Assembly (NCBI RefSeq): GCF_027625475.1
Contig: NZ_CP115174.1
Location: 3,566,501-3,630,500, forward strand
DNA length: 64,000 bases
Origin: Sphingomonas abietis
GTDB lineage: Bacteria > Pseudomonadota > Alphaproteobacteria > Sphingomonadales > Sphingomonadaceae
Reading direction: 5' to 3'
Shown here: positions 48,344-64,000 of the stretch, in pieces
Layout: every line of letters starts with the position of its first letter
Numbering within the stretch: the stretch's first letter is position 1
The notes under the pieces: model-generated
What the model was told of the DNA's origin: nothing
The model's database searches: none
The model's input: the letters and a program-made list of their open reading frames with translations, nothing else
Translations under genes and position numbers: made by a program

Positions 48344-48613
48344 CTACCGAGCGGTTTTCGCGTTCCGGATCTGCCGGACGATGCCGTTGTAGGCGGCGTG
48401 CAGTCCCTGGCTGCGGCCGATCTCATGCTCGGAGCCGGCGGCATCCCAGAAGGCGATGAGCCATTCATCGGGGCAGCGGCTGCGCAAGACCCACAGCGCC
48501 AGCGCCACGCCGCGTGTTTGCACCTTGGCTTTTTGTCCGGCCGCTTCCCGCAGGACGTCGAGCGCGCGTTCAATCGTGCCGGTGGCCCGCGCTCCGGCCT
48601 CAGTGGAAGTCAT
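48344..48613 (-). CDS. Hypothetical protein downstream of and overlapping dnaE2
   Basis: An 89-residue basic helical protein of unknown function (middle: [32 protein letters not shown]). It starts inside the end of dnaE2 with a 14-base overlap, so it is translated with the imu operon and probably SOS-regulated. It carries one cysteine and no known domain. Worth noting as a possible accessory factor of the mutasome. Confidence 0.65.
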
Positions 48614-51600
48614 GGCTGCGGATACGCACCAGTTCTTCCTGCTCCTGCGCGCTGCCGAAGGGCGGCGAGGCGAGCGTGCGGCCACGCGGAAAAGCCGGGT
48701 CACGCGGGTCCGGCCCGCCGCCATGCGATGCACCATCGCCGCGCCCGGGTGTGACGGCAAAATCCATCCGGCCGATCGATCGCAGCATGGGATCATGGTC
48801 GATGATGCGGTCGCAGATGATGTGGATGACCTCCCCTTCCTTCTGGAGGCGACCGCGCATGGCTATCATGGATGCGGACATGATCTGGCGACGATAGACC
48901 TCGAACTTGTCAGGCCAGAGAATGCCTTGAGCCACGCCGGTTTCGTCCTCGATCGTCACGAAAAGGACGCCCTTGGCGGAGCCAGGGCGCTGGCGCACCA
49001 AAATGACCCCGGCGACCTCGACGTTGCGCCCATCCCGGATCGTGGCGAGATCTGCGCAGCGTACGATACGCATGGCGTCCAGCTCGGACCGCAGGAATTG
49101 GAGCGGATGGCCGCGCAGTGAAAGCTGGAGCGCGCGATAATCCTCGACGACCTCGCGGCCCGCCGTCATCGCGCGGAGCGCCACGTCGGGTTCGAGCCCT
49201 TCGGGCGAGAAGCCGCCCGCGCGCGCATCGGCGGCAGCGAATAATGGCAGGGGCGCGTCGCCGAGCCCTTTCACCTTCCATAACCCCTGACGGCGATTCT
49301 CGGCGATGCAGTGAAAGGCGTCGGCCTCAGTGAGCCGCTCGATCGCGGCGCGTGGTACGCCCGCGCGACGCCAGACCTCTTCGACGCTGTCATAGGGTGT
49401 CGGCCCGCGCGCCGCGACGATGGCAGCGCCATGGACATTGGCAAGGCCCCGCGCCTGACGGAAGCCGAGCCGTACGGCCATATGGCGACCGCGCGCGTGC
49501 TCCAGCGTGCAGTCCCAATGGCTATGGTTGACCGAGACGGGGCGGATTTCGACGCCGTGATTGCGGGCGTCGCGGACGATCTGGGCGGGCGCGTAGAAGC
49601 CCATTGGCTGCGCGTTGAGGAGCGCCGCGCAAAAGACGTCGGGATGATGGTATTTCATCCAGCACGACGCATAGGCGATCTTGGCGAAAGAAGCGGCATG
49701 GCTCTCGGGGAAGCCGTAAGAGCCGAAACCCTCGATCTGCTTGAAGGTGCGTTCGGCGAAGTCCTTGGGATAGCCGCGCGCAACCATGCCGCCGACCAGC
49801 TTGTCGTAGAAGTGGCTGACTCCGCCGGTTAGCTTGAACGTCGCCATGGCGCGGCGCAGTTGGTCGGCCTCGACGGCGGTGAAGCCGGCGCCGACAATCG
49901 CCACCTTCATCGCCTGCTCCTGAAAGAGCGGCACGCCGAGCGTCTTTTCCAAAACGGCGCGCAGCTCGGGCCGGGGATATTCGGGTTTCTCCTTGCCCTC
50001 GCGGCGACGAAGATACGGATGCACCATATCGCCCTGGATCGGCCCAGGCCGCACGATCGCCACCTCGATGACGAGATCATAGAACTCCTTGGGCTTCATG
50101 CGCGGGAGCATCGACATCTGCGCCCGGCTCTCGATCTGGAAGGTGCCGAGCGTATCGGCGCGCTGGATCATGCCATAGACGTCGGGGTCGTCGTCCTGCA
50201 GGTCCGCCATGCTGACGCGGATGCCCTTGTCTTGCTCCAGCAGGGTGAAGGCGCGGTTCATGCAGCCGAGCATTCCCAGGCCGAGCACGTCGACCTTCAT
50301 GAATTTCAGCGCGTCGATATCATCTTTATCCCACTCGATAATCTGGCGGTCTTCCATGCGCGCCGGCTCGATCGGCACGAGATCGTCGAGTCGGTCCTGA
50401 GTGAGCACAAATCCGCCAGGATGCTGGGAAAGATGGCGCGGCGTGCCGATAAGCTGGCGAGCCAGTTCCAGCGTCAGCTTCAGCCGGTGATCCTCGGCAT
50501 TGAGGTTGAGGCTTTCGATCTGCTCCTGCGGGATGCCGTCCATCGACCAGCCCCAGACGAGGCCAGTCAGCATCTTGGTGAGATCGCGCGGCAGACCAAG
50601 CGCCTTGCCAACTTCGGCGACGGCACCGCGCGTGCGGTAGCGTGTGACGACGGCGGTCAGCGCCGAGCGGTCACGCCCGTATGTATTGTAAATCCACTGA
50701 ATGATCTCCTCGCGTCGCTCATGCTCGAAATCGACATCGATATCGGGTGGCTCGCGGCGCTCGCCCGATACGAACCGCTCGAACAGCAGCTCGTGCTGGA
50801 TCGGATCGATCGAGGTGATGCCCAGCAGATAGCAGACGCAGCTATTGGCAGCCGATCCGCGCCCCTGGCAGAGGATGCCACGCCGACGGCTCTCGGCGAC
50901 GATCGCGTTGACCGTCAGGAAATAGGGCGCGTAGCCAAGCTGGTCGATCAGACCCAGCTCATGGTCGATCTGCTCGCGATAACGGGCGGGAATGCCATCA
51001 GGGAATTTGGCGGCGGCTGCATCCTCAGTGAGCGCGGCGAGCGCCTGTTGCGCGGTCCGCCCCGCCATGACCTGCTCATAAGGATATTGGTATTGGATCT
51101 CGCCAAGGTCGAAGGTGCATTGGCGCGCGATGTCGGCGCTCGCCTGGATCGCGTCGGGAAAGTCGCGGAAGCGCCGCTCCATCTCATCGGGTGATTTCAG
51201 GTTGCGGTCCATGAAGCGCTCGCGGCGGAAGCCCAGCGCATCGATGGTGCATTTCTCGCGGATCGCGCTGACCACGTCCTGAAGCGGTCGCCGCTCGGCG
51301 CTGTGATAGAGAATATCGCCGGTCGCGACGCTGCGCACGCCGGCACCCCGCGCGGTCGCGTCGAGCCGGTGCAGTCGTTCGGCGTCGTCGGGCCGCCGGC
51401 GCAGTGCAAGTGCGCAATAGCCGCGTTGGCCAAACACGCCGCGCAGCTCGCGCAGATCGGCGATCGTCCGATCGTCAGGCATGTCGGGTACGAGGATCGC
51501 GACCATGTCATCGGCATGGGCCGCGACATCGCTCCATTCGAGGATGCACTTGCCCTTGCCGCCGCGCGCCTTGCCGATCGATAGCATCCGGGTGAGGCGC

Positions 51601-51860
51601 GACCAGGCGGTGCGGGTTCGCGGGTAGAGCAGCAATGTGCGGCCGTCGGTCAGGTCCAGCCGGGAGCCCGGAATCATCCGCACGCCCGTCGTCTTCTGGC
51701 CATCCCAGCCGCGCACGACACCGGCGACCGTATTCCAGTCGGCGAGGCCCATCGCCTCATGACCGAGCAGAGCGGCGGCGGCGAAGAGCTCCTCGGGCGA
51801 CGACGCGCCGCGCAGAAACGAAAAGTGGCTTGCGACCTGAAGTTCGACGTAGGTCGCCAT
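48600..51860 (-). CDS. dnaE2: Error-prone DNA polymerase III alpha subunit DnaE2
   Basis: A 1086-residue C-family polymerase (E. coli DnaE 1160; DnaE2 group 1050-1100). The PHP domain opens the protein ([22 protein letters not shown]), and the catalytic aspartates lie in [15 protein letters not shown] with the palm context [16 protein letters not shown]. The C-terminal OB-fold is present. DnaE2 carries out translesion synthesis and needs ImuA and ImuB. The start at 51860 overlaps the imuB stop as TGATG. Confidence 0.95.
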
Positions 51861-53671
51861 CAACCGAACATCCCGTGCATGTACCAGCTGAGGTCGCCAG
51901 TCGGAGCATCGACGCCGTCGCCGCGCCGGAACAGCCAGAAGCGCTGGCCGCCCTCCGCCTCAACGCGGAAATAGTCGCGCACAGCCCACATCTCCTGCGC
52001 GTTCCGCCACCATTCGCCGTGAATGCGCTCGGGGCCGTCACCGGCGACGACGCGAAAATCCTGCCGGCGCCAGGTGAAGCGACGAGGCGGATGGTCGGGC
52101 AGCAGCGCGACGACATTGGACAGCGGCTCGGGGCGCCTGAGGAGCCGCGCCGGCCGCTTCCATCCCGGCCAGCCCGAGGGCGTGGCAAGTGGCGGCAGGC
52201 GGCGCATCGCGCGTTCGGGCACGTCGCTCTCTTGGGACGATACGCGAAACAGCGCTGACCCGCCGGCGCGGCTGCTGAGTTGGTCGACCAGCGGCGCGAG
52301 GTCGCGCGTCTTGCGCGAAGTTTCGAGCAGCGCGCCTGCGGCCTCGGCGCCGAGCGGCTCGGACAAGGGCACGGCGAGGTGCATCGCCTCAATGCCGAGG
52401 CCGGGATCGAGCCCCTCCATCCGGAGTCCGAACATGCGCTTGAGATGCCGGGCGTCGCGCGTCGCGCGAGAGGCGCCGACAGCGAGGCGCTGCGCCTCTC
52501 CATCGACGCGATCGGCAGTGAGCTGCACGGCACGCGCGCCAAGGCCGCGGGTTTGCAACAGTGCGACGAGGTCATCGACAAGATCGTCGATGACCTGCGC
52601 GATGCTCTCCGGCGTGCCGATCGGCTCAAGCAGGCGGCGGGTCACGCGCGGCGCATCGATGGGCACCACCGGAATGATTGGTTCGGCGAGGCTGCCGCGC
52701 GCCTGATCAAGGCGATCGACGCTGCGCATGCCGAGACGCCGTGCGAGCGGTCCACGGGGCATCGGATAGAGGTCAGCGATGCGCTCGAGCCCGAACCGCG
52801 CGGCCGCAATCAGCGCGTCGGAATCGAGGCGGAGCGCGGCGAGCGGCAGATCGGCAATCGCCTGTGCCTCCTGACCAGGGTCGAGCAACGTAATGGTGTC
52901 GCTTCCGAACCGGGCAAGCGCATGGGCGGCACCCGGCGTACCGGCGATCGCGATGCGCGCGGTCAGGCCGAGCCGTTTCAGGAAGGCGAGCAGGCGCCGG
53001 CAGAAGCGCGCCTCGCCGCCGAACAGATGAGTGGTGCCAGTGAGATCGAACCACAATCCGTCCGGGCCGGTCACGCTGGCGGACGGCGTCCATTGCCGGG
53101 CGGCGTGCAAAGCAAGGCGGTCGAGCAGCGCGCGATCGGCATCGGGCTCGGCATCCCGGACATCGAGATCGGCGACTAGCGCGCGAGCATGGGCGGCCGC
53201 CATTCCGGGCCGCAACCCGAGGTTGAAGGCCGCGGGACAGGCAGCGGTGATGATGTCGCGCTGGCCCGTCCGGATGATGAGCACGGTCGGGCGGCCCCAT
53301 AAGGTGGCCCAGCCCGGCGGGGCGGCAACGGGCGGAGCACCGCCGTCGTCGGGCCGCATCGCCCGGAACGGATGTTCGGCATGCTCGCTGCGCCGCCCCA
53401 TCTCGCGCATGGTCGGGCGCTGATGGGCGGGAAGCGCATCGATCTCGATCTGGGATGGTCGGCGTCCAACGGTCTCGTCGCGTGCCCACCGCGCGCCGGG
53501 ACGCCATCCCCCTCCGCGCGGAACCGAACAGGCGCCAGGATCATCGTCGATCGGCGGCGCGAACCGTGGCGCGACCGCGTAGCCGGCGTCAGGCGGCTTG
53601 GCTGAGCGCTCGTTCCGTCGCAGCCGCTCGATCGGCAGTTGCGGCAGGAAGAGCGAGGCGACCCGTGGCAT
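51860..53671 (-). CDS. imuB: DNA polymerase Y-family mutasome protein ImuB
   Basis: A 603-residue inactive Y-family polymerase that brings DnaE2 to the sliding clamp. The palm begins at [15 protein letters not shown], and the middle has typical [20 protein letters not shown]. The two catalytic acidic residues of active Y polymerases are not evident, as expected for ImuB. GGAGG lies 6 bases before ATG at 53671. It overlaps the imuA end by 83 bases and dnaE2 by one base. Confidence 0.93.
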
Positions 53672-54365
53672 CGCACGCCTCCAGTTCGAGGGAAAAGGGA
53701 TTGCCGCTGCGCTGACGGACCAACTCGACAAGCCAGCGCGGTCGGCCGACGCCAGCCCAAGGTAGCCGCTCCGATGGCACGCACCCGATTCGCCACCGCG
53801 TCATCGCAGCTGACGGCACGGCGAGCGGGCAACGCCCGCGCACTCGGTGGCGGCGGTAGAGAAGCATCGGTGTCTGACCATCGGCCGCTGCGAGCTGCAA
53901 TCGCCGCGTCGCGGTCATGTCGGCGGCCTTCACCTCCGCGATCACGCACGCCAGCGAGCCGTCCCGCAAGGCATCCTCGGCCATAGCCAGCACCTCGATG
54001 TCCTTGCGACCTTGGCCGTAGAGAATCTTGTCGGGCCCGAGGCCGACCTGTTCGATGCCAGGCGCGTAGAGATCGAAAGCGGTGACGGCCCAGAGCATCG
54101 TATGGCCGGGCTGCTCGGCAAAGCGAGCGGCGATGCCGGCGAGAAACAGGGTGGCGGCTGCGTCATCGCTCAGCGTCTCGGACGCGGCCGCGATTTCGTG
54201 AAGGCCAGCGGTGTCGAGACCGCGATCGGCAAGCCGGCTATCGAGTGCGGGCAGCGCGAACGCCAGCGCCGGCCCCCGCAACGCGGTGGCCAGTGCCACT
54301 TGCGCGCGGAGCGCAGAAAGCTGTTCGGCGCGAGGCCGTTCGTTCAAGGCAGGCGGTGTCAGCAC
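53589..54365 (-). CDS. imuA: Mutasome protein ImuA (RecA/SulA-like)
   Basis: A 258-residue RecA-fold-like protein that inhibits or loads the mutasome. The family segments LHEIAAASETLSDDAAATLFLAG, PILYGQGRKDIEVLAMAEDAL and VRGRCPLAVPSAAMTRWRIG are visible. It starts at GTG (54365), 21 bases after a LexA box, and ends 83 bases inside imuB. First gene of the operon imuA-imuB-dnaE2. Confidence 0.92.
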   Translation of the reverse strand: MLTPPALNERPRAEQLSALRAQVALATALRGPALAFALPALDSRLADRGLDTAGLHEIAAASETLSDDAAATLFLAGIAARFAEQPGHTMLWAVTAFDLYAPGIEQVGLGPDKILYGQGRKDIEVLAMAEDALRDGSLACVIAEVKAADMTATRRLQLAAADGQTPMLLYRRHRVRGRCPLAVPSAAMTRWRIGCVPSERLPWAGVGRPRWLVELVRQRSGNPFSLELEACDATGRLALPAATADRAAATERALSQAA

Positions 54366-54385
54366 AGATCATCATCGACTCGTTC

Positions 54386-54400
54386 GTTCTATATATGTTC
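54386..54400 (-). promoter_or_regulatory. LexA box before imuA
   Basis: GTTC-N7-GTTC (spacer TATATAT) on the plus strand, 21 bases before the imuA start. This is the alphaproteobacterial SOS operator form. A match this exact directly before the mutasome operon is strong support. Confidence 0.9.
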
Positions 54401-54493
54401 CGTTGAGTCGGAAGATTCGTCAAGGTCGCGAATCGCTTTGCTAGCGGGCCAACTCCGTTCGGATCGCTACCGAGTGCGGCAGGCATCCCTGCA

Positions 54494-55111
54494 TCAAAGC
54501 ATCGTCGCCTCGGGCATCGGGGGGAAAATTCGGGTTACCGGGAGACTGCCCTTGGGGAGAACGCCGAGTATCTCTTCAGCGGGAACCGACGGATCGAGCC
54601 AGTCCGCCCACTGAGCACGGTTCAGCGGAATGATTTGTCGGGAGTGGTAGGGCGCAACGTCCTCGCCCGGCTCCATCGTCAGCATCGTGAAGGCCTCGCC
54701 AACCTCGGGATGGGAACGCCAGATACCGGCGATGCAGAACCACCGATGGTTCTTGAGGGTGAACAAGTATTTGGTCTTGCGCTTCTGGCCAGGCTGTATG
54801 GGTTCCCCAAACTCATAGAAGCCGTCGGCCAAGATAAGGCAGCGATGCGAGGTGAACCCGCGGCCTTCTGACCGGAAGTTATAGACCGGCTTTCGGTTAT
54901 TGCCTGGCCAGCTCCATCGTCGGTTCACCAGTTCACCGACACCTCGCCTGCCTTCTACGCCGCGGACGATCGGGGCCGTGTCCGTCATTTTGATGTCGGC
55001 GCGGGGCTCGACGTTGGGAATGCCTTCCGGCGTCTCTATGTTGATTTCGAGGTCATCGAAATCCTCCATGATCGAGGCGATCTCCACCTCTAGACGATAG
55101 TCATTGCACAT
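54494..55111 (-). CDS. SRAP/YedK-type abasic-site shielding protein
   Basis: A 205-residue HMCES/YedK-fold protein. Cys2 after the initiator methionine forms the thiazolidine crosslink to an abasic site in single-stranded DNA, the asparagine is in YNFRSE, glutamate in LADGFYEFG and histidine in APYHSRQIIP. All four are present, so it should be active. A LexA box lies 39 to 53 bases before the start. Divergent from a degenerate paralogue and next to the mutasome operon: consistent with SOS repair of abasic lesions. Confidence 0.93.
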   Translation of the reverse strand: MCNDYRLEVEIASIMEDFDDLEINIETPEGIPNVEPRADIKMTDTAPIVRGVEGRRGVGELVNRRWSWPGNNRKPVYNFRSEGRGFTSHRCLILADGFYEFGEPIQPGQKRKTKYLFTLKNHRWFCIAGIWRSHPEVGEAFTMLTMEPGEDVAPYHSRQIIPLNRAQWADWLDPSVPAEEILGVLPKGSLPVTRIFPPMPEATML

Positions 55112-55149
55112 GAGGTGGTCTGCCTTCCAACATCTTGCGACTCGCTTTC

Positions 55150-55164
55150 GTTCACATTATGTTC
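55150..55164. promoter_or_regulatory. LexA box between the two SRAP genes
   Basis: GTTC-N7-GTTC with spacer ACATTAT. It is placed correctly before the SRAP gene on the minus strand and overlaps the probable start of the divergent paralogue. Confidence 0.85.
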
Positions 55165-55692
55165 TTATCCGTGAGCGCAACCGCAACCCCTTTCGACACG
55201 AACGCTCCCGATGGGAGTGTGCGACCGATCATACGATACAAGCCCGATGAACCGGGCAAGAAAGAGATAGTAGGCGCGCGCTGGGGATCGAACCCACGCT
55301 TTTCGGCTGGAATCGAGTATCGGTTCGTCCGGTCGGAAGGAAAGACTTTTCCCGCCTATCGCTGCCTTATGCCAGCGTCCGAGTTTCACATGACCGTTGG
55401 CGATCGCCGTTACAGGGTAACGCTGGAAGACGGGAATTTCTTCTATCTCGCCGGGGTTTGGGAGCCGGCAATGGCGGGATGGCCGCTGGCTTTCCGGATC
55501 ATCACGGTCGCCGCCAATCCGGAGGTCGCGCGTTATCAGGAGCGCCATGGCGCGATCATTCATCGTCGTCAGGTTATGAGCTGGCTCGACGCGACGGTGC
55601 CGGAAGGCGATCTGCTGGTGACGCCGCCGGCGCATCTGTTCCTCGTCGAGGAGATCGACGGCGCGCCCGTCCAGAAGGTATTGGCGCTCTGA
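55159..55692 (+). CDS. SRAP-like protein lacking the catalytic residues
   Basis: A 177-residue relative of SRAP/YedK. The middle is recognisable (YRFVRSEGKTFPAYRCLMPASEFHM, FFYLAGVWEPA, RHGAIIHRR) but Cys2 is absent, the asparagine of YNFRSE is replaced, and the glutamate of FYEF is methionine or shifted. It is probably a pseudoenzyme that may still bind DNA. The start is uncertain: ATG at 55159 or GTG at 55171, both next to the LexA box. Followed at once by a small gene and alkB. Confidence 0.75.
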   Translation: MFLSVSATATPFDTNAPDGSVRPIIRYKPDEPGKKEIVGARWGSNPRFSAGIEYRFVRSEGKTFPAYRCLMPASEFHMTVGDRRYRVTLEDGNFFYLAGVWEPAMAGWPLAFRIITVAANPEVARYQERHGAIIHRRQVMSWLDATVPEGDLLVTPPAHLFLVEEIDGAPVQKVLAL

Positions 55693-55693
55693 A

Positions 55694-55930
55694 ATGAACG
55701 CGGGAACGGATATCGTAGCGGCATTGGTAGAGCTTCCGGCACCCACCCAGGCCGATCGGGCAGCTGCGCTCGCGCGCTGGCGGACGGAGCACGAAGTGGC
55801 CGACACGGATGATTCAGCCTTGACCGAAGCGGCGCGCCTGACGCGGGTGTTCGTCACCGAGTGCGGCCCAGCGTTCGACCCAGTGGCTTTCGGCGAAATG
55901 GTCGAGTTCATCGAAGAACTGCCCTTTTAG
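55694..55930 (+). CDS. Small acidic hypothetical protein between SRAP-like gene and alkB
   Basis: A 78-residue acidic protein (ends EMVEFIEELPF) with no known domain. It begins one base after the SRAP-like stop and ends 4 bases before the alkB start, so it belongs to the same SOS-linked operon. Confidence 0.65.
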   Translation: MNAGTDIVAALVELPAPTQADRAAALARWRTEHEVADTDDSALTEAARLTRVFVTECGPAFDPVAFGEMVEFIEELPF

Positions 55931-55934
55931 CACC

Positions 55935-56507
55935 GTGCTGGACCTATTCAACGCGCCGCTGCTGCCGGGCTTGGCATCGTTTCCTGAGATCGTGAGTGAT
56001 GACGAGGAACGTGGGCTGATCTCGGCGATCGACGCGATCGAGCTATCGCCGTTTCGGTTCCAGGGCTGGACCGGCAAACGAGTGACGGCATCATTCGGGT
56101 GGAATTACGATTTCGACACGCATCGGGTCGACCGTGCGGCCCCGATCCCGCCCTGGTTGCAGCCGGTTCGTGAACGCCTCGCGAGATGTGCAGGGTTAGA
56201 CCCGCGCGAGCTAATTCAGGCGCTGATGATCCGCTACGATAAAGGCGCTGGTATAAACTGGCACCGTGATCGCCCGATCTATGAGCATGTCGTTGGGCTC
56301 TCGCTTGGAGCGCCGGCAGACATGCGATTCAGGCGCCAGCGCCCGGACGGCAAATATGATCGGGTGTCGCTCCCGCTTGCTCCTCGGGCCGCCTATCACA
56401 TGTCAGGGGAAGCCCGGCACGAATGGCAGCACAGCATAAACGAGATGGATCGCACACGCTGGTCGATCACTTTCCGCTCACCATCATCGCTTTGGCCGCG
56501 AGACTAA
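55935..56507 (+). CDS. alkB: Alpha-ketoglutarate-dependent dioxygenase AlkB
   Basis: A 190-residue Fe(II) dioxygenase that removes alkyl groups from DNA bases. Iron ligands H110 and D112 (NWHRDRP) and H166 (EWQHSIN) are present, as is the ketoglutarate-binding R175 and R181 in RTRWSITFR. It starts at GTG (55935), 4 bases after the small acidic gene. The E. coli ada/alkB regulatory gene is not seen here; LexA control through the shared operon is possible. Confidence 0.92.
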   Translation: MLDLFNAPLLPGLASFPEIVSDDEERGLISAIDAIELSPFRFQGWTGKRVTASFGWNYDFDTHRVDRAAPIPPWLQPVRERLARCAGLDPRELIQALMIRYDKGAGINWHRDRPIYEHVVGLSLGAPADMRFRRQRPDGKYDRVSLPLAPRAAYHMSGEARHEWQHSINEMDRTRWSITFRSPSSLWPRD

Positions 56508-56758: not shown

Positions 56759-58576
56759 TCAGGTTGTCCCCGCTTCAGCCATGCGCTGCTCGAGTTCGTT
56801 GAGGAATGGCGAGCGGCCGCGGTACATTCGCCCGCGCGGGGTATCGACGAACCCCGAATAAAGCATGTGAACCTCGTCGCGCGCGCGCGTCAGACCGACG
56901 TAGAAAAGTCGCCGGCTTTCCCGCAGCTTGGTAGGCGACTCGTTCAGCCACGGCAAACTGCCGAGATCGAGACCAACCATGATCACCACGTCGTACTCGC
57001 ATCCCTTCGCCGAGTGCAGGGTGAGCAGATTCAGGTGTAGCGGCGAGCCGTCGCGGCCTCCCAAGCTAGCCATGTCTAACTCGGCCAGCGCGCCCCCTAC
57101 TGCCAGCGCCTCCGTCATGCGGTCGACCTGCTCGCGTTGATCGGCGAGGCCCGGCTCCGTAGCCATCAGCGCGTCTAACAAGCCGGCACGCATCGCTGCC
57201 ACGAACCCGCGGGCGGGCGCCTCGTCATCTCTCAACGACCAGAGCAAGGCGGTCAGGCGCCGAGCCTCTTCCCGCGCCTGCTGGTCGCGGACGCGCGTGC
57301 GCCGGAAGCCATGCCAACGGTCAAGAAGCCCGCGCAGCTGCGGTCGGGCCTCGCGCCAGCCACCCGCGCACCAGGCAGCGCAATCCTCGATCCAGCTGGT
57401 GAGCGCGACCTTGCGATAAGGCGCGGCGGTGTCAATGCGCACATAATCGTAGCCGGCGGCGGTCGCGGCATCGGCCACGATGTTACCCGCGCGAAAGTCC
57501 TTGTAGAGGACGGCGATGTCGCCGAGGCTCCGCCCCGGCTTCGAGGCGAGCGCGACGGGAATGATCTCCGCGACAGCGTGCGCGGCTTGTCCTTCGAGAC
57601 CGCCATCGCAAGGCACGAAGGCAATCACCGCCTGTCGCGCCTGATCGCTTGCCTGGTAGCCGCGCGTTTCGCCGAGCGCCATCTCAGAGGCGCTGACGAT
57701 CCGCGCGGCCGAACGATAGTTGAGCTGAAGCTGCACGCGCTCGACGTCGCCTCGTTCGGCCAGGTCCGTGAGCAATCCGCCATCGGCGCCGGTGAATCCG
57801 TATATCGATTGGTCCGGGTCGCCGACTGCGAAGAGCCGCACATCACCTTCAAACGCAAGCCGACGTACGATCCGGTCGAGAGCGACACCGAGATCCTGAT
57901 ATTCGTCTACGGCGAGTACGGGAAACTTGGCCTGCACCAATGGCAAGACCCAGTCATGCTCGGCGATCAACTGCTGACCGAAGACGATCAGGTCGTCGAA
58001 GTCGATTAGACCGGTGCGGCGCAGCTCCGCCTCGTAGGCCACCGTCCACGCCGCGAGTTCTGCCTCGGCCTCCCAATCGTCGGCGGTGCGGTCGAGCACC
58101 GAGCGACGGTGTCGTCCGAGATCGATTGACTTCCAAGGGTGATTGACGCCGAATAGCCGGTCTCCCGAGCGCTTGAAAAGCGCCTCGCTCTGGCGCTGCG
58201 TCGCCATCGTGAGCGGGAACGGCAGCGGCAGGTCGGCGAGCCGGCCATAGGGCATGAGCAGATGACGCAGGCAGAAGCCGTGGACCGTGCCGATGAAGAG
58301 ATTGGACGCTTCGCGCAGCCCGAGCCCCTCCAACCGGCGGGTCAACTCGCGCGCGCACTCCTGACTGTAGGTGATGCAAGCGGCTCCGCGCGGGGCTCGA
58401 ACGTCTTCCGCCAGGATGCGCGCGAGCTTCAGGACGAGCGTCTTCGTCTTGCCGCTCCCCGGGCCGGCGAGCACGACGCAGTGGCCGGTCGAGTCGTAAG
58501 CCGCGAGTTGGCCGGGATTGCCGGCGAGATCGGCCGCTTGGCCGAGATAGGCTGCGCTGATGCTACGCGACGGCAT
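56759..58576 (-). CDS. UvrD-like superfamily 1 helicase, GajB-like
   Basis: A 605-residue DNA helicase. Walker A is AGPGSGKTKT (37-46), motif II VLAVDEYQDLG, motif III GDPDQSIYGFTGADG, motif V LTLHSAKGCEYDVVIM and motif VI FYVGLTRARDEVHML, all complete. The start at 58576 overlaps the OLD gene's stop by 14 bases, so translation is coupled. This OLD-then-UvrD order is that of Gabija (GajA-GajB), although the E. coli-type GajB is near 490 residues and this one is longer. Confidence 0.85.
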   Translation of the reverse strand: MPSRSISAAYLGQAADLAGNPGQLAAYDSTGHCVVLAGPGSGKTKTLVLKLARILAEDVRAPRGAACITYSQECARELTRRLEGLGLREASNLFIGTVHGFCLRHLLMPYGRLADLPLPFPLTMATQRQSEALFKRSGDRLFGVNHPWKSIDLGRHRRSVLDRTADDWEAEAELAAWTVAYEAELRRTGLIDFDDLIVFGQQLIAEHDWVLPLVQAKFPVLAVDEYQDLGVALDRIVRRLAFEGDVRLFAVGDPDQSIYGFTGADGGLLTDLAERGDVERVQLQLNYRSAARIVSASEMALGETRGYQASDQARQAVIAFVPCDGGLEGQAAHAVAEIIPVALASKPGRSLGDIAVLYKDFRAGNIVADAATAAGYDYVRIDTAAPYRKVALTSWIEDCAAWCAGGWREARPQLRGLLDRWHGFRRTRVRDQQAREEARRLTALLWSLRDDEAPARGFVAAMRAGLLDALMATEPGLADQREQVDRMTEALAVGGALAELDMASLGGRDGSPLHLNLLTLHSAKGCEYDVVIMVGLDLGSLPWLNESPTKLRESRRLFYVGLTRARDEVHMLYSGFVDTPRGRMYRGRSPFLNELEQRMAEAGTT

Positions 58577-60344
58577 CGCGGATGTGCTCCAGCGCACGGC
58601 GGATATAGTCAGGACAGGCGGCGGCAGTGACTCGAGGAGCTAAGGCCTGAGCGAAGCGGCCCTTGCCGATCCGCTCGATGTAGCCGAGCAGCCGATCGGG
58701 CTCCAGCGTGGCCGGATCATCGATCCAACCTTGGATCCGAGTTCTCGCCGCCTGAACAAGCGAAAGCTCGCGTAGGATCACCCGCTGCATCCGCTGTGCG
58801 AGCCCGCCTCGCCACAGTTCGAGCTCGAGCGTGTCGCCGTTGACGAAGTACCCGAACGGCTCAGCGTGCTCGATCACTTCGTCGGCGCCCATCGCCTCGA
58901 AGTCGACGTCCTCGTCGACAATTTCGAGGACGCTGATCAGGCGCCGTCGGACAAACGGTGGATGCGGCCCGTTCGGATCGCGGTCGGTTATGATGACGTG
59001 CGGGATAGAGAGACCCCGCGATCCCAGCAGCTTGACATAGGGGGTGAAGTTGGTGCCGGCCACCGAGCAGACCGTGATGCCCAGCATGTCGAGCGGCATG
59101 TCGAGCGCCTCTGCGAAAGCCGGGACGAGGAAGCGCTCCGCGTCGCCTTCAACGAGGATGACGCCGCGAGCGAAAAAGATTTCGCCGCGGCTCACGTCAA
59201 TGTAGCGTTGCAGATCGCCTTCATCGCGCGTGGTAAGCGGTGCGGCGGCGGTGGACACTCCGACCGTGGCTCCCGCTGTGGGGTCATGACGCAGCAGGAC
59301 TACGGAGCGGATCGGAGTCACGCTGGCGATGTGCGGTGAATGGGTCGTGAGGATCGTCGTGAGCGGCGGCTCATCCTCGTCGCCGTCCGTCCCCTCAAGG
59401 AAGTAGCGGTAGACCAGGCGCTGGACGTGCGGGTGGAGATGCGCCTCGGGCTCCTCGATGGCGAAGAAGGTGTGGTCTCGCTCACCGTCAGCGACCAAGC
59501 GGTCGAGTTCGAGGCTCTTCAGCGCGAGAAAGACCAAATTGGCGGTGCCGAGGCTCGCGTCCGCGATGCCGCGAGTAGTATTGTCGATAAGAAGGCGCAG
59601 GCTCCGCAAGAGCGCATCCAGCCGCGTCGGTGCCAGTCCAAGCGTGACAGGTGTCGCGTGCTGCGCGCCGGCGATCGCGATCAGGCGGTCGCTAATTCGG
59701 GTAGCCGTTGCGACCACCTCGGCCCGCCCGACAAGCTCCGTCTGGGCGGCGTTCACCTGTTCCTGTATTTCGGACCGCGCCTCCTCGTCCAACGAGGTGG
59801 CCAGTTCCTCGATCAACGGCCGCAGCGGCGAGTGGCGCCAGTTCGACAGATCCTTCTCGGCGTCGCGAAGTGCGACTTGAACATCGAGCGGCAGCATACG
59901 GCGTAGCGACGCGCCGATCACCATGTCAGGGTCGTCGCCGCCGAAGATCACGTACTCGTAATCGGCGAGACCCTCGGGATCACCTTCGAGCCCAGCCTTC
60001 GGCTGAAAACGGTAGGTCAGCCGGGCAAGCATCGGCGGACCGGGATCGACAATGCAATCATTGAGATGCGCCATCAGGCGCGGATCGTCGGTGAAGTCGG
60101 TAAGCTCGACCGATACTTCCACGGTGGCGCCGAGCTTCTCTTCCCCGAGGCCGTCCCAGAACTGATCCAAGCCGAGTTGGCGATCCCGCTCCGACAAGGC
60201 AGGATCGAGGATGAGTTGGATCGCTCGCAGGAAGTTGCTCTTACCCACCTTATTCTCGCCAACCACGACGATGCTCTCGCCGGTCTGGACGTCGAGGTTC
60301 GAGAAGTTGGCGAAGTTGACGATGCGAACCCTTGATATTCTCAC
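58563..60344 (-). CDS. OLD-family ATPase/TOPRIM nuclease, GajA-like
   Basis: A 593-residue protein (GajA about 580). Residues 1-370 are an ABC-type ATPase: Walker A GENKVGKSN (29-37), LGTANLVFLAL signature-like, Walker B FFAIEEPEAHLHP (296-306) and TTHSPHIA. The TOPRIM domain follows with glutamate 399 in ILVEGDAERF and aspartates 454 and 456 in ITDRDPNG. It starts at GTG (60344). GajA is a sequence-specific DNA-nicking enzyme inhibited by nucleotides; here it is followed by a helicase and preceded by nuclease and Argonaute genes. Confidence 0.88.
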   Translation of the reverse strand: MRISRVRIVNFANFSNLDVQTGESIVVVGENKVGKSNFLRAIQLILDPALSERDRQLGLDQFWDGLGEEKLGATVEVSVELTDFTDDPRLMAHLNDCIVDPGPPMLARLTYRFQPKAGLEGDPEGLADYEYVIFGGDDPDMVIGASLRRMLPLDVQVALRDAEKDLSNWRHSPLRPLIEELATSLDEEARSEIQEQVNAAQTELVGRAEVVATATRISDRLIAIAGAQHATPVTLGLAPTRLDALLRSLRLLIDNTTRGIADASLGTANLVFLALKSLELDRLVADGERDHTFFAIEEPEAHLHPHVQRLVYRYFLEGTDGDEDEPPLTTILTTHSPHIASVTPIRSVVLLRHDPTAGATVGVSTAAAPLTTRDEGDLQRYIDVSRGEIFFARGVILVEGDAERFLVPAFAEALDMPLDMLGITVCSVAGTNFTPYVKLLGSRGLSIPHVIITDRDPNGPHPPFVRRRLISVLEIVDEDVDFEAMGADEVIEHAEPFGYFVNGDTLELELWRGGLAQRMQRVILRELSLVQAARTRIQGWIDDPATLEPDRLLGYIERIGKGRFAQALAPRVTAAACPDYIRRALEHIRDAVA

Positions 60345-60346
60345 GT

Positions 60347-60553
60347 TCAGCGTTCCCGTTTCTGTCTGATCGCGCGGTCGGTCGCGGTTTCGCCGACGCT
60401 AGCATCATCTTCACGATAAGCGGAGCCGCCACGCACCTCGCTTGCGAGTGGCTGAACATCGCCAGTCCGATCAAGCGGGTCGGAAACAAGCGTGCTCGAT
60501 ATGATCAGCTGAGCCGACGACAGCCCGCAGAGAGGCGCCCCAGGAGGCGGCAT
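60347..60553 (-). CDS. Possible small protein filling the gap between nuclease and OLD genes
   Basis: A 68-residue open frame beginning 6 bases after the nuclease stop and ending two bases before the GTG start of the OLD gene. That tight fit favours a real gene. Against it, the ATG has no Shine-Dalgarno and the sequence has no domain. If not coding, the 215-base gap could hold a promoter for the OLD-helicase pair. Confidence 0.3.
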   Translation of the reverse strand: MPPPGAPLCGLSSAQLIISSTLVSDPLDRTGDVQPLASEVRGGSAYREDDASVGETATDRAIRQKRER

Positions 60554-60559
60554 TTAGGC

Positions 60560-61822
60560 TCATCGCGCCGTCATACGAGCCTCGTCGGAGCGCGGTGGCA
60601 GACTGCTCGGGCGCCGCACGAAGACGACGTCGATGATGCGGGTGTCGTGCCGCCTGAGCGCATCGCGCAGGCTGTCCCATCGCTCGGGCTGGGAGCTGTC
60701 AGCATCGTCATAAATATAGGCGACCATGCGGCTCCACTCCTCCGGCCGCTCGAAATATCGAACGCAGTCTTCGCGAATTTCGGTTTCGATCTTGGCCGCC
60801 TCGGCCCAGTTGCGCACGACCTTCGCCTCGATGACGAGCTTCAGGTCGCGAATGCCGAAGTCGATGCGCGGCTGCACTAGGCCGGTCGACGCTGTGTAGC
60901 GCTCGTCGCAGAGCGACGCCCCGAAGCGGGGATAGAGGATTGCGTACAGGAAGGCCTGAACATGCGCCTCGCGGTCGATGAGCCAGCGCGCGCCCCGCCG
61001 TCGTGCGCCGTCCTCCTCCCAAGGCCAGCGCTTGAGCGCCCCTTGCGTCGCGCGCAGGATTGTTACGACCTCGTCGACCGTGGGGACAAGCGATACCGCC
61101 GCCTCCCCCGAGAGCACAGCAAGTCCCACCGACCAGGCGGCGGCGCGCTCGAGCTCGCCTGCGACCGGTGCGGTCCGGCGCAGGAGCTCGGTCATCGTCG
61201 CGATGCGCTGGTCGTCGGACGGTACCGGCGAGAGGGTCGCGGCAAGCGGCCAGACCCGGCGGAGAGCAAGTTCGAGCGCCTGCGCATCGGCGTCGCCACC
61301 TGGAGCGGCCGCCTTGAGGCGCCCGCGCCCGTCCATCAAGTCTGCAGCGAGCAGCCGAGCGCGGCCGGTCCAGTGGGGTGGCCCGGACCAGGCGTCCGCG
61401 TAGGCTGCAAGCCAGGTCCGCGCGTCCCGCGCGTCAGCGACATCGCCGATTCTGTGGAGGCCGTCGGCGATGCCGAGAAGCGCAATGTCGTCGGCCAGGA
61501 TCTGGCCGGTTACGGCGCCGGGCCGTCCACGCAGGCGGGCAATCTCGCCAAGGAAAGCCGCAGCATACCTGGCGGCCGTCGCATCGTCGCTGAAGGCAAG
61601 GACGTAGCCGGCATGCGCGATCGCCGGGACGCCGCCGTAGCGCGCCGCCTCGAGGGCGTCCGCGATCGACGCGGCGGGAAGCGTCCAGTCGGTCGCGACG
61701 TCGCCGGCCCGATGCAGCCGGCCAGCAAAGCCGAGCGCCGAGGGCGCGGCGTCCTGCGCCGAAAACGCGATCGTGCGGCGAAGCTCCTCTAGGCGATCCG
61801 CCAGCAAGGCTTGCGGAGTCAC
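60560..61822 (-). CDS. PD-(D/E)XK-like nuclease linked to Argonaute
   Basis: A 420-residue protein. The C-terminal third has a restriction-endonuclease pattern: glutamate 285 in DREAHVQAFLYAIL, aspartate 321 in QPRIDFGIRDLK, then glutamate 332 and lysine 334 in LVIEAKVVRNW. The N-terminal 280 residues are alpha-helical and alanine-rich with no recognised domain. The start is set at GTG 61822, which overlaps the Argonaute stop as GTGA; an open frame to 61876 is less likely. Likely effector nuclease of the Argonaute, by context. Confidence 0.75.
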   Translation of the reverse strand: MTPQALLADRLEELRRTIAFSAQDAAPSALGFAGRLHRAGDVATDWTLPAASIADALEAARYGGVPAIAHAGYVLAFSDDATAARYAAAFLGEIARLRGRPGAVTGQILADDIALLGIADGLHRIGDVADARDARTWLAAYADAWSGPPHWTGRARLLAADLMDGRGRLKAAAPGGDADAQALELALRRVWPLAATLSPVPSDDQRIATMTELLRRTAPVAGELERAAAWSVGLAVLSGEAAVSLVPTVDEVVTILRATQGALKRWPWEEDGARRRGARWLIDREAHVQAFLYAILYPRFGASLCDERYTASTGLVQPRIDFGIRDLKLVIEAKVVRNWAEAAKIETEIREDCVRYFERPEEWSRMVAYIYDDADSSQPERWDSLRDALRRHDTRIIDVVFVRRPSSLPPRSDEARMTAR

Positions 61823-64000
61823 AGGAACCACATTGAACCGCGCAGTCGCTCGGATGCCAACACGGCGCTGTTCCACCCCGGTACCGGCTTAAGGTTTGCG
61901 AGCGAGGCCGCGATCAACCGCGAATAGAGAATCGTGATCGGCTCGTGCGACGGGAAGAAGCTCCGCCACGAGAGGTAGGAGAAATGGAAGATCTGCCGGG
62001 CGAGATAGGTGATGTCCGTGAAGTCGGAATCCGGGTGGAGGTCGATCAGAAGTGGCACGGGAAGGCCCTGCTGATCCGTCTTCACCTCGTCGACCCCGAT
62101 AAGCTGCAGCAGGGCGGCTCGTGGCCCGAGCTGGAGACATCGCCCGCGCGTGGGCGCGCCGGCGCCCTTCAGGCGACGGTCACCCCGCCCCGCCCAATAA
62201 TCCTTGCCGCGCTGGGACGGGTCGAACTGCAGATATTCGTGGTGCTGCGAGATGTTGACGAAGGCGAACTTCACCGCGTGTTGATCAGCGATCAGCTCGC
62301 GGACCACCGCCTTCACCGCATCGATCTCGGTGTTCTTCAGCGGCTTGAAGACATGGAAGACTAGACGGACGGTCTCGCCGGGCTGCCAATTATTCTGCTC
62401 GCGGACATAGGCGATGCTGCTGCGCAACCGCTCGATCAACGCGTCGGCATATTGGTCGAACTCGACTTCCCTGGTCTGACCCCAAACCAGATAACGGCCA
62501 TCGCCCTGAAAGACTGTGGTCAGGCCGACATAGCGATCGCGGACGCCGAACCGGCCCTCGCGTGTCTCGGCATAGCCGAGCCCGATGACCAGCTCATGCG
62601 TCGCCGGCCCGCGCATGGACATGACGAAGGGCAGCCCGTCGAGCTTTGCATAGGCCTGTAGCGCCAAGCCATTTAGCGTATAAGCGAGTCCGGCCTCGTC
62701 GTTTTCAATGGTCTCGAGACGGACGCCCTGGACGGGTACGCCGGCGGTCATGAACCGCGCTTTCGAGATTAAGTAGGGATTGCTTGGCGCTGGCAGGTCG
62801 CGATGGGCCTGTCGGGTCTGGACGAGCGCAAGGTCGGGGGCCGCCGGCAGGCGTCCCAGCAGTCGCTGGATGGCTTTCTCATACGCATCGACCGACGAAT
62901 CCGCCGCCGCTTCGAACTCGAATTGCACGCGGGCGAGACGGAATTTTCCCACGAGTCCACCCTGGAAGGGATTGACCTTGGGGTTGGGGCGCCCGCTGAC
63001 GATCTCGCGCCAGACGTCATCCGGAAAGCCATCGCGTAGCGCGCGCGCCAGCTCGTCGGCACTGCCTTCCTTACCCTTTTCGCAGATCACGGCGACCAAC
63101 GGGGCGTTACGAGCATGCTGCATATATTTGTACGGACCGAAGGTCTTAACGCCAATATCGGGCGACCGGTTTGTCTGGCTACCCTGCGCGCCGAACAGGA
63201 ATGTCGGGCGCGATGTCTCGATCGTGTCGGGAAAGAGCGGGTCGCCGGCACCGAGCAGCGTTCCGACATGGATTATGAGCCCATCGGGCAGATGCAGGTC
63301 CTTGGCGAATTTGTCGCGGACGCCTTCAAGGGTCCGCCGAATATGATCGAGCTTCTGGGCGCCAGACCAATATTCCCGGCGCCGCTTGGCCAAGCCGGTC
63401 AAGATGCGGTGGGCCGCGCGGTCATATTGGTGGTGCACGAGGGCTTCGAGATATTCCTGGCGCGGCTCAAGAAGCACATGCTTAGCCGCGACGCTATCGT
63501 CGCCGCTGGGATCAGCCAGCCGGAGGATCCCGCTCTCGACCCCGATGACGCGACCTAGCGTTTCTAGGCGTGGTCGCATACCATCCTCGATCGGCGCATG
63601 GCGGCAGACCCACCGCCCTATCAGGTCGAAGCGCGCATCGATCAGTGCGTCACCGGCGATCGCGAGCTCGTTGGATGTGTCGACGTCAAGGAGAAGCGCG
63701 AGGAAGGCTGGGGCGGCGGCGCCCCGCGTCTGGAGGACGCGGGTATCGAAGCTGTGGCGCACGAGCACATCGAGACCCTCGACGGGCTCGAGATTACGCT
63801 CTCGGATCGCGGCCGACAGCAAGGCCGCCTTGCGATTGCCCCAGCATTGCAGCGGGCGCACGGGGCGGAGGATGGTGCGGGTGGCGCGCAGCCATTCGAG
63901 GAGCAGATGCTGGACGACCTTGCCCAGCAGGAGAAGATGCTCGTCGACCCGCGCGACCTGTGTTTCGCCGAGTGGCACGACGTCGGGCACTACAGCGACG
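61819..64000 (-). CDS. Long prokaryotic Argonaute (start beyond window)
   Basis: At least 723 residues (counted here from an internal GTG at 63990; the frame remains open to the edge, so the true start may lie outside). The MID domain has ETSRPTFLFGAQGSQT, FGPYKYMQHARNAPLVAVICE, then the 5'-phosphate pocket NPYLISKARFM...GVPVQ and YAKLDG (Y406, K410, Q421, K449). The PIWI fold runs from ATHELVIGLGYAE to ILYSRLIA and the C-terminal MWFL. Of the catalytic DEDX tetrad, the first aspartate position reads glycine (GLGYAE) and the third reads histidine in VFHVFKP, so slicing is not expected. A long-B-type pAgo by these features. Confidence 0.85.
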   Translation of the reverse strand, partial: VAVVPDVVPLGETQVARVDEHLLLLGKVVQHLLLEWLRATRTILRPVRPLQCWGNRKAALLSAAIRERNLEPVEGLDVLVRHSFDTRVLQTRGAAAPAFLALLLDVDTSNELAIAGDALIDARFDLIGRWVCRHAPIEDGMRPRLETLGRVIGVESGILRLADPSGDDSVAAKHVLLEPRQEYLEALVHHQYDRAAHRILTGLAKRRREYWSGAQKLDHIRRTLEGVRDKFAKDLHLPDGLIIHVGTLLGAGDPLFPDTIETSRPTFLFGAQGSQTNRSPDIGVKTFGPYKYMQHARNAPLVAVICEKGKEGSADELARALRDGFPDDVWREIVSGRPNPKVNPFQGGLVGKFRLARVQFEFEAAADSSVDAYEKAIQRLLGRLPAAPDLALVQTRQAHRDLPAPSNPYLISKARFMTAGVPVQGVRLETIENDEAGLAYTLNGLALQAYAKLDGLPFVMSMRGPATHELVIGLGYAETREGRFGVRDRYVGLTTVFQGDGRYLVWGQTREVEFDQYADALIERLRSSIAYVREQNNWQPGETVRLVFHVFKPLKNTEIDAVKAVVRELIADQHAVKFAFVNISQHHEYLQFDPSQRGKDYWAGRGDRRLKGAGAPTRGRCLQLGPRAALLQLIGVDEVKTDQQGLPVPLLIDLHPDSDFTDITYLARQIFHFSYLSWRSFFPSHEPITILYSRLIAASLANLKPVPGWNSAVLASERLRGSMWFL

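Follow-up and report, generated by a model that had tools for sequence, protein, structure and literature searches.

A likely tandem of two known defence systems, BPAN and Gabija, in a four-gene block found at two Sphingomonas sites

The window analysed here is a stretch of 64,000 nucleotides of Sphingomonas abietis DNA, at the end of which four genes lie head to tail on the minus strand. A sequence-only reading had already described this run, and all four open reading frames were recovered where it had placed them. The genes and the related features are as follows.

61819..64000, minus strand, stop at 61819: predicted long-B Argonaute (open reading frame list; PADLOC and PDB matches)
60560..61822, minus strand: predicted bAgaN-type pAgo-associated nuclease, 420 aa, with a helical N-terminal domain and a PD-(D/E)XK domain
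60345..60559, strandless: spacer between the two gene pairs, 215 nt
58563..60344, minus strand: predicted GajA, ABC-type ATPase and TOPRIM nuclease (class 2 OLD), 593 aa
56759..58597, minus strand: predicted GajB, UvrD-family helicase, 612 aa
56525..64000 and on to about 64540 beyond the window, minus strand: putative transferable block, 94.7% DNA identity to a copy at another site
61200..62950, minus strand: tract in which the two copies diverge more strongly (from a sliding comparison with an estimate of the breakpoint)

The full Argonaute open reading frame encodes 799 aa and begins with a GTG at L004:12218 (L004 being the Sphingomonas abietis locus), which would be window coordinate 64218 and thus past the window end. 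The Argonaute stop and the nuclease start share a GTGA, so the coupling of the two genes that had been read from the sequence is indeed present. The genes gajA and gajB overlap by at most 35 nt, a figure that varies with the start chosen for the helicase.

The Argonaute had been called catalytically dead, a description which the alignments and structural matches bear out. The part of the protein inside the window scores 695 bits against the PADLOC model pAgo_II. In the PDB, it matches the EcAgo chain of entry 23wq (E 9.9e-85, the profile match covering positions 17-793 of 793) as well as chains that we take to be RsAgo (E about 5e-86). At the position of G-x-D, presumably the canonical PIWI slicer motif, the aligned Sphingomonas abietis protein carries G-L-G, the first position of the tetrad being the only one that was read confidently. 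In the MID domain, Y482, K486, Q497 and K525 are invariant in 43 sequences and also in 9 diverse Argonautes. By alignment, the residues of the YK...Q...K pocket for the guide 5′-phosphate are present, the Q and K positions being, we assume, part of that pocket. According to Ryazansky 2018, YK is typical for long-B Argonautes and the DEDX tetrad is absent from all long-B pAgos (PMC6299218). The protein thus appears to be a full-length long-B Argonaute devoid of the DEDX tetrad.

The nuclease is recognised by Pfam DpnII-MboI (81.5 bits) and by PADLOC Aga_Helical-REase (213 bits). It also matches EcbAgaN of PDB 23wq with an E of 4.3e-12, within a segment limited to residues 248-378. D321, E332 and K334 are invariant in 17 sequences and align with the motif region of EcbAgaN, whose active-site motif is D-ExK (PMC10620215); by this alignment the active site of the nuclease is intact. 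The predicted model has a pLDDT of 82.8, with REase-like chains among the matches of its C-terminus.

Entry 23wq holds both EcAgo and EcbAgaN, and the BPAN system has been described experimentally as one of abortive infection: in EcBPAN, RNA-guided DNA recognition leads to activation, and genomic DNA is degraded (PMC10620215). This favours the earlier suggestion that the nuclease is the effector of the Argonaute. We therefore assign the two genes to a putative BPAN pair that matches EcAgo and EcbAgaN. As in the described system, the Argonaute gene lies upstream of the nuclease gene and overlaps it, here as an og_15/bAgaN nuclease in the same operon. The Argonaute is of full-length long-B type with no slicer motif; the nuclease combines a helical N-terminus with a PD-(D/E)XK C-terminus bearing D...E-x-K. 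Both proteins match 23wq chains, and the PADLOC combination of pAgo_II and Aga_Helical-REase is that of Class II. On the other hand, the Sphingomonas abietis sequences are distant from EcBPAN. Moreover, Gabija lies downstream here, whereas the main text of PMC10620215 does not contain the word "Gabija".

The second pair was at first called Gabija-like. The kinship stands, but the wording was too cautious, as the two genes appear to form a complete Gabija with GajA and GajB. The first protein scores 760.9 bits against PADLOC GajA PDLC00070 over residues 1-592 of 593, with AAA_15 and OLD-like_TOPRIM above the Pfam cut-off. The helicase scores 782 bits against the GajB model PDLC00108 (residues 167-610) and 768 bits against PDLC00117 (residues 14-608), its UvrD N and C domains exceed the Pfam cut-off, and its PDB matches include UvrD/PcrA and GajB entries. 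An ABC-type ATPase with TOPRIM is thus encoded beside a UvrD-family GajB; as in Gabija, the ATPase gene is followed by the overlapping helicase gene, the models are matched over nearly their full length, and GajA, class 2 OLD and GajB structures are all among the matches. Two features differ: the pair sits behind BPAN, and the best solved structure for GajA is a class 2 OLD fragment, 6njv, which ranks above the GajA entries (class 2 OLD fragments at E 1.3e-93 and 2.1e-80, GajA entries at about 2e-11). We take 6njv to be the class 2 OLD from Xanthomonas.

With PADLOC scores of 213-782 bits and Pfam in agreement, the gene identities lie far above chance. The readable active-site motifs of the four genes look intact in the alignments, the Argonaute slicer excepted.

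The same four genes were found at a second Sphingomonas site, which is new here. Positions 4525-12540 of L004 align to positions 17685-9679 of L007, a locus of Sphingomonas lycopersici MMSM20, over 8018 columns with 94.7% DNA identity. This 8.0-kb segment holds the four genes and short flanks, and it lies at a different site; the similarity extends only about 235 nt beyond gajB on one side and 320 nt ahead of the Argonaute gene on the other, and the rest of L004 (flanks of 4.5 kb and 7.5 kb) gave no alignment to L007 at E 1e-5. A block of such identity at a different site, between flanks that do not align, suggests that the four genes move as one block, in this one case. The genes have equal lengths in both copies and dN/dS values of 0.075-0.153, and they therefore show signs of purifying selection.

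In the spacer, 202 of 216 aligned columns are identical to the Sphingomonas lycopersici copy. Consensus scans of 60345-60559 gave no promoter- or terminator-like site, a result that carries no weight in Sphingomonas abietis, and the spacer had no Rfam match.

The first scan for BPAN used two short peptide patterns, and its sample was the best 80 of 89 relatives. Of 29 Argonaute-nuclease loci, 6, from 5 independent lineages, carry a Gabija-type pair no more than 10 kb away, the pair of L023 lying only partly inside the locus; this co-occurrence is suggestive but small. The order and strand seen here recur in two of the 29 (L007 and L018), and in L018, from a Phyllobacteriaceae MAG, Gabija belongs to another subfamily. 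Elsewhere, Gabija is adjacent but upstream (L020) or convergent (L025), or lies at a distance (L067 and L023). The Argonautes of the latter two are 98% identical to each other, and their Gabijas match different models. The remaining 23 loci have no Gabija-type pair in the DNA examined, contig ends cutting 10 of the 29, and none of six plasmid records with the nuclease has a Gabija pair nearby.

Of the 29 BPAN loci, 5 have PF20469 (OLD/TOPRIM) at a distance of up to 10 kb, compared with 2 of 62 HsdR/PglZ places (p 0.03 in a one-sided Fisher test); when the range is extended to about 12 kb, the count is 7 of 29 (p 0.004), including L023 and L082, the contig of the latter being inferred from position. 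These Fisher values are descriptive, as the control is loose: taxa and contig sizes are unmatched, related loci enter the count individually, and of its two positives one falls below the family cut-off. This excess over the control runs counter to two merely neighbouring systems, as does the order in L018, which would be unexpected if adjacency were meaningless.

In 346 genomes of the order, the GajA model was found in 11, nine of which have no pAgo_II match beside GajA; in G083 and G001, Gabija is likewise present with no pAgo_II match. A full Argonaute occurs in three of the 346, and one of these has no Gabija within 20 kb: G349, from the genus of the Sphingomonas lycopersici assembly, carries a full Argonaute-nuclease pair with no GajA or GajB profile match over that distance. 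In one protein collection, GajA relatives made up 5574 of 7999 scored candidates (E 0.001), with 47 for the Argonaute and 16 for the nuclease; the 120 GajA relatives listed are 77-97% identical. Metagenomic relatives of the Argonaute show 73-96% identity.

The sequence-only reading had offered two possibilities: a second system beside the Argonaute pair, or a single system of four components. It had named separation of the two pairs in most genomes as evidence against the latter, and this is largely what the loci and genomes examined show. The four genes do not occur together in most genomes with the first two (29 BPAN loci, 6 plasmid records), and we rejected the composite as the default for this reason, even though the transfer of the block in one case is what such a system would be expected to display.

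We consider it quite likely that two complete and separately known systems, BPAN and then Gabija, form one mobile tandem defence cassette. Each gene can be assigned to its own known family by PADLOC, Pfam and the PDB, and the two systems also occur apart; they look like recurring neighbours rather than one new machine. From family knowledge, the Argonaute would load short 5′-phosphorylated RNAs and pair with single-stranded invader DNA. This would switch on the nuclease, which would degrade cellular DNA, so that the invaded cell dies. Gabija would attack invading phage DNA independently. We infer that the two may be kept together by complementary targets, plasmids for one and injected linear phage DNA for the other, and by joint transfer.

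A less probable but still plausible explanation is that the pairs came together by chance in a defence island, linked neither by function nor by selection except in that islands are good landing sites. Defence genes are known to cluster, as in PMC10121019 and PMC12629846. As in an island, unrelated systems adjoin in a variable chromosomal region, and BPAN neighbours elsewhere match varied PADLOC families at one locus each: HamB, AbiEii, RmrA, SoFic, DrmMI or type IIG, PDC-S02, PDC-S28, SspA/DndA and a type II methyltransferase. However, just two systems are present here, in a compact block at two sites; similarity to Sphingomonas lycopersici is confined to that block and does not continue into a longer island, and the equal lengths and low dN/dS also speak against chance. 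So does the recurrence of Gabija, the sole defence type to recur among the neighbours scanned (37 hand-picked genes at 23 of the 29 loci, E 1e-30, a threshold at which weaker defence genes are missed).

Functional coupling of the four genes is possible, though we regard it as unlikely. DNase action by BPAN would produce DNA ends and disturb nucleotide pools, which would license Gabija to complete the destruction of invader or host, and adjacency would be selected. Gabija acts on linear DNA without RecBCD (PMC12407980) and is released by nucleotide depletion (PMC8136825), triggers that could arise from a DNase. The block at two chromosomal sites, the recurrence of Gabija alone, its adjacency in L020 and L025 and proximity in L067 and L023, and the exchange of Gabija models beside near-identical Argonautes or in the same order (L018) are consistent with coupling. 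Against it stand the many loci, plasmid records and GajA genomes in which the pairs are apart, the varying order and strand in other lineages, and the 215-nt gap between pairs whose own genes overlap. We would give similarly low odds to its fuller form, in which the RNA-guided Argonaute and its DNase are a sequence-aware trigger for Gabija, in a unit assembled at least twice, with different Gabijas in unrelated lineages, and spreading as one mobile module.

A reading of the OLD and helicase genes not as Gabija but as additional subunits of the Argonaute system is highly improbable, given 761 and 782 bits to the GajA and GajB models, the far greater number of GajA relatives in the protein collection, and the 9 of 11 GajA genomes with no adjacent pAgo_II match.

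Literature searches that paired Argonaute with Gabija gave, in titles and abstract starts, no description of a BPAN-Gabija tandem. A functional tandem would offer a natural example in which two DNA-targeting defences with different mechanisms are transferred and selected jointly, and Gabija would be predicted to respond to the action of the Argonaute-activated nuclease. Even otherwise, the Sphingomonas lycopersici copy points to a compact mobile cassette with two systems. The block also offers a clean four-gene construct for tests of defence synergy in laboratory strains.

Some linkage is favoured by two observations, the single transferable block and the different Gabija subfamilies beside BPAN. 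As to the setting, the region beside a tRNA-Ala gene is absent from the six genus relatives examined. An island bounded by a direct tRNA repeat was considered and rejected: the window holds no tRNA 3′-end repeat, and neither the window nor the 100 kb on either side contains an integrase-family gene. These scans thus gave no sign of an integrative element.

Between the two copies, dS is 0.22-0.23 for the Argonaute and nuclease genes and 0.09-0.11 for gajA and gajB. We dropped the idea that the Gabija pair is the younger one, since the best single breakpoint, 61187 (support 61270-61123), falls within the nuclease gene and off the Gabija boundary. The sliding comparison shows a tract inside the Argonaute-nuclease pair, at about 62950-61200, where divergence is about 8-13% per 250 nt vs. 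mostly 1-5% elsewhere in the genes. The tract covers the half of the Argonaute that contains PIWI and, in the nuclease, the helical part; divergence is low in the N-terminal half of the Argonaute and in the C-terminal part of the nuclease.

The four genes are carried by a single-contig genome of 4.43 Mb and, as the sequence-only reading had claimed, run head to tail on the minus strand in the order Argonaute, nuclease, OLD/TOPRIM ATPase (gajA) and UvrD helicase (gajB). The Argonaute stop and the nuclease start indeed share the sequence GTGA, gajA and gajB overlap by at most 35 nt, and a 215-nt spacer lies between the two pairs. The full Argonaute ORF encodes 799 aa, with its start codon outside the window.

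Model and structure searches identified each gene. The PADLOC models scored 695 bits (pAgo_II), 213 bits (Aga_Helical-REase), 761 bits (GajA) and 782 bits (GajB). In PDB sequence searches the Argonaute matched EcAgo of 23wq (E 9.9e-85) and, at E about 5e-86, chains 5awh and 6d8a, labelled 'uncharacterized' in PDB, which we take to be RsAgo. Nuclease residues 248-378 matched EcbAgaN of 23wq (E 4.3e-12). GajA matched class 2 OLD fragments (E 1.3e-93 and 2.1e-80) and GajA entries (about 2e-11), while the helicase matches were UvrD/PcrA and GajB entries. Nuclease residues D321, E332 and K334 did not vary across 17 sequences, nor did Argonaute Y482, K486, Q497 and K525 across 43. The translations also contain the Walker and TOPRIM motifs of GajA (GENKVGKSN, LVEGDAE, TDRDP) and the helicase motifs of GajB (GPGSGKT, VDEYQDL). 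The alignment, read against the canonical catalytic motif, places a glycine at the first catalytic aspartate of the Argonaute, so the protein is predicted to be catalytically dead, as previously suggested. Each half, the long-B Argonaute with its bAgaN-type nuclease (BPAN) and the Gabija pair, adds a further member to a system already known.

Comparison with Sphingomonas lycopersici MMSM20 (locus L007) indicates that the Argonaute, nuclease, gajA and gajB are one block that moves. The alignment covers 8018 columns at 94.7% identity and takes in the four genes plus about 320 nt of upstream and 235 nt of downstream sequence. The rest of the compared 20 kb of S. abietis (flanks of 4.5 kb and 7.5 kb) gave no alignment to the 22.4 kb of L007. 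All four gene lengths are identical in both genomes, with dN/dS values of 0.075, 0.153, 0.119 and 0.092. Divergence between the copies reaches about 8–13% at window 61200-62950, against mostly 1–5% elsewhere in the genes. This tract spans the Argonaute-nuclease junction, covering the PIWI half of the former and the helical part of the latter, and its simplest explanation would be that homologous exchange brought in another allele. The S. lycopersici block lies between a two-component system and, at its opposite end, sigma-FecR-TonB genes together with a nucleotidyltransferase/HEPN gene. The protein with nucleotidyltransferase and HEPN domains (L007:7045-8022) is possibly toxin-antitoxin related.

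In S. abietis, a tRNA gene stands beside the block, upstream of the Argonaute (coordinates in L004, the retrieved genomic stretch that spans it):

L004:12891-12966, tRNA-Ala(GGC), just past the window end (equivalent to window coordinates 64891-64966)

The tRNA-side match starts at the tRNA 3′ end in nine other genomes of the genus (two are split, with one piece starting there). This end is a synteny breakpoint against 6/6 retrieved relatives of the genus, so the right part of the window is probably a variable region at tRNA-Ala. No part of window 40001-64888 was found in the 12–15 kb beyond the tRNA in the 6 relatives, except for one 402-nt match (68%) in one genome. No integrase was found near the tRNA and no repeat within the window. 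Adjoining the block, window 48600-56507 presumably encodes an SOS mutagenesis-like set (DnaE2/ImuC, ImuB, ImuA), two SRAP-like proteins and one AlkB-like protein.

A pattern scan based on the Argonaute alignment over an 84,980-species collection gave 89 relatives. Among the best 80 of these 89 loci, 29 (28 genomes) had a nuclease profile match, 10 of them cut by contig ends. A neighbourhood search of the kind proposed by the sequence-only reading gave a Gabija-type pair at up to 10 kb in 6 of these 29 BPAN loci, and none in the retrieved DNA of the other 23.

Gabija-related neighbours of BPAN loci
L007, S. lycopersici: same block as S. abietis
L018:1-7621, Phyllobacteriaceae MAG: Argonaute (cut by contig end), nuclease, GajA, GajB; order and strand as in the window
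L020, Prauserella: Gabija-type pair upstream of BPAN, same strand, weaker model matches
L025, Phytohabitans: convergent Gabija-type pair, weak model matches
L067, Methylobacterium MAG: Gabija about 5 kb off, opposite strand (PDLC00070, 778 bits)
L023, Xanthobacter: GajB within the locus; about 11 kb lie between the TOPRIM and the Argonaute
L075:7700-9664, Lentzea pudingi: OLD/TOPRIM-type ATPase adjoining the BPAN pair, no helicase partner found
L021: NERD-UvrD protein, not Gabija

In the Phyllobacteriaceae MAG the spacer between the pairs is 136 nt and the Gabija belongs to another subfamily (PDLC00090, 803 bits; PDLC00103, 721 bits), its GajA being 25% identical to that of the window. The Argonautes of L067 and L023 are 98% identical and count as one BPAN lineage, hence five independent BPAN lineages with Gabija. 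Their neighbouring Gabijas match different PADLOC models, which would fit two separate gains of Gabija close to a single BPAN. Both Argonautes also share a gene pair directly upstream (L023:7712-9928, L067:7456-9672). Its products, of 453 and 285 aa, are 93% and 95% identical between the two loci; the pair had no PADLOC match at 1e-30 in L023 and may be an additional part of that BPAN branch. At L080, left out of the count, a Gabija-like pair adjoins an Argonaute without a nuclease match. A scan at E 1e-30 of another 37 genes neighbouring 23 of the BPAN loci placed each other defence family in a single locus.

As a loose control, we used 115 genomes of the class. PF20469 (OLD TOPRIM) is present in 17 of them, above the cut-off in 14, and is located within 10 kb of 2/55 HSDR_N places and 0/7 PglZ places. 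The domain is present in 12/28 BPAN genomes and within 10 kb of 5/29 BPAN loci (L007, L018, L020, L067, and the helicase-less L075). The difference from the 2/62 control places (one-sided Fisher p 0.03) is a hint that PF20469 is commoner near BPAN, since the two sets are unlike in taxa and contig quality.

Viewed from the Gabija side, the GajA model (E 1e-60) matched 11 of 346 genomes of the order, and an Argonaute stood beside GajA in two of these, S. abietis and G539, which carries the block of the S. lycopersici assembly. Three of the 346 exceeded 700 bits for pAgo_II. The third, G349, has both Argonaute and nuclease, with no GajA or GajB profile match in 20 kb. In a separate family sample the nuclease was found in 1/149 genomes, S. 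abietis itself. The protein collection held 16 relatives of the nuclease, 47 of the Argonaute and, among 7999 scored candidates, 5574 of GajA.

According to PMC10620215, BPAN senses DNA by means of RNA guides and unleashes a collateral DNase. Gabija acts on linear DNA left unhandled by RecBCD according to a preprint (PMC12407980), which argues against nucleotide depletion, the releasing signal in PMC8136825. By analogy with these families, the Argonaute would sense DNA with an RNA guide and trigger collateral DNase activity, and Gabija would act on linear DNA without RecBCD handling or upon nucleotide depletion. The simplest reading is that the two are independent layers with complementary targets, transferred together. 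A coupling of the two by way of DNA ends or nucleotide depletion is conceivable, though not directly supported. We regard the tandem as a neat mobile combination whose recurrence is hinted at, rather than as a system of a new kind. The titles and abstract openings of the literature searched for Argonaute with Gabija held no description of such a block, the words Gabija, UvrD and helicase are all absent from the main text of Song 2023 (PMC10620215), and Ryazansky 2018 (PMC6299218) reports UvrD/P-loop proteins near pAgos in general.

Six plasmid records also match the nuclease, with several loci fragmentary, and their retrieved stretches contain no Gabija pair. One weak GajA-profile match (35.8 bits), in L106, is annotated as an ATP-binding protein and lies next to RloB. 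On two Roseomonas plasmids (L108 and L109), the annotated Argonaute genes are split or shortened beside insertion sequences, with nuclease matches nearby; these BPAN loci are apparently decaying.
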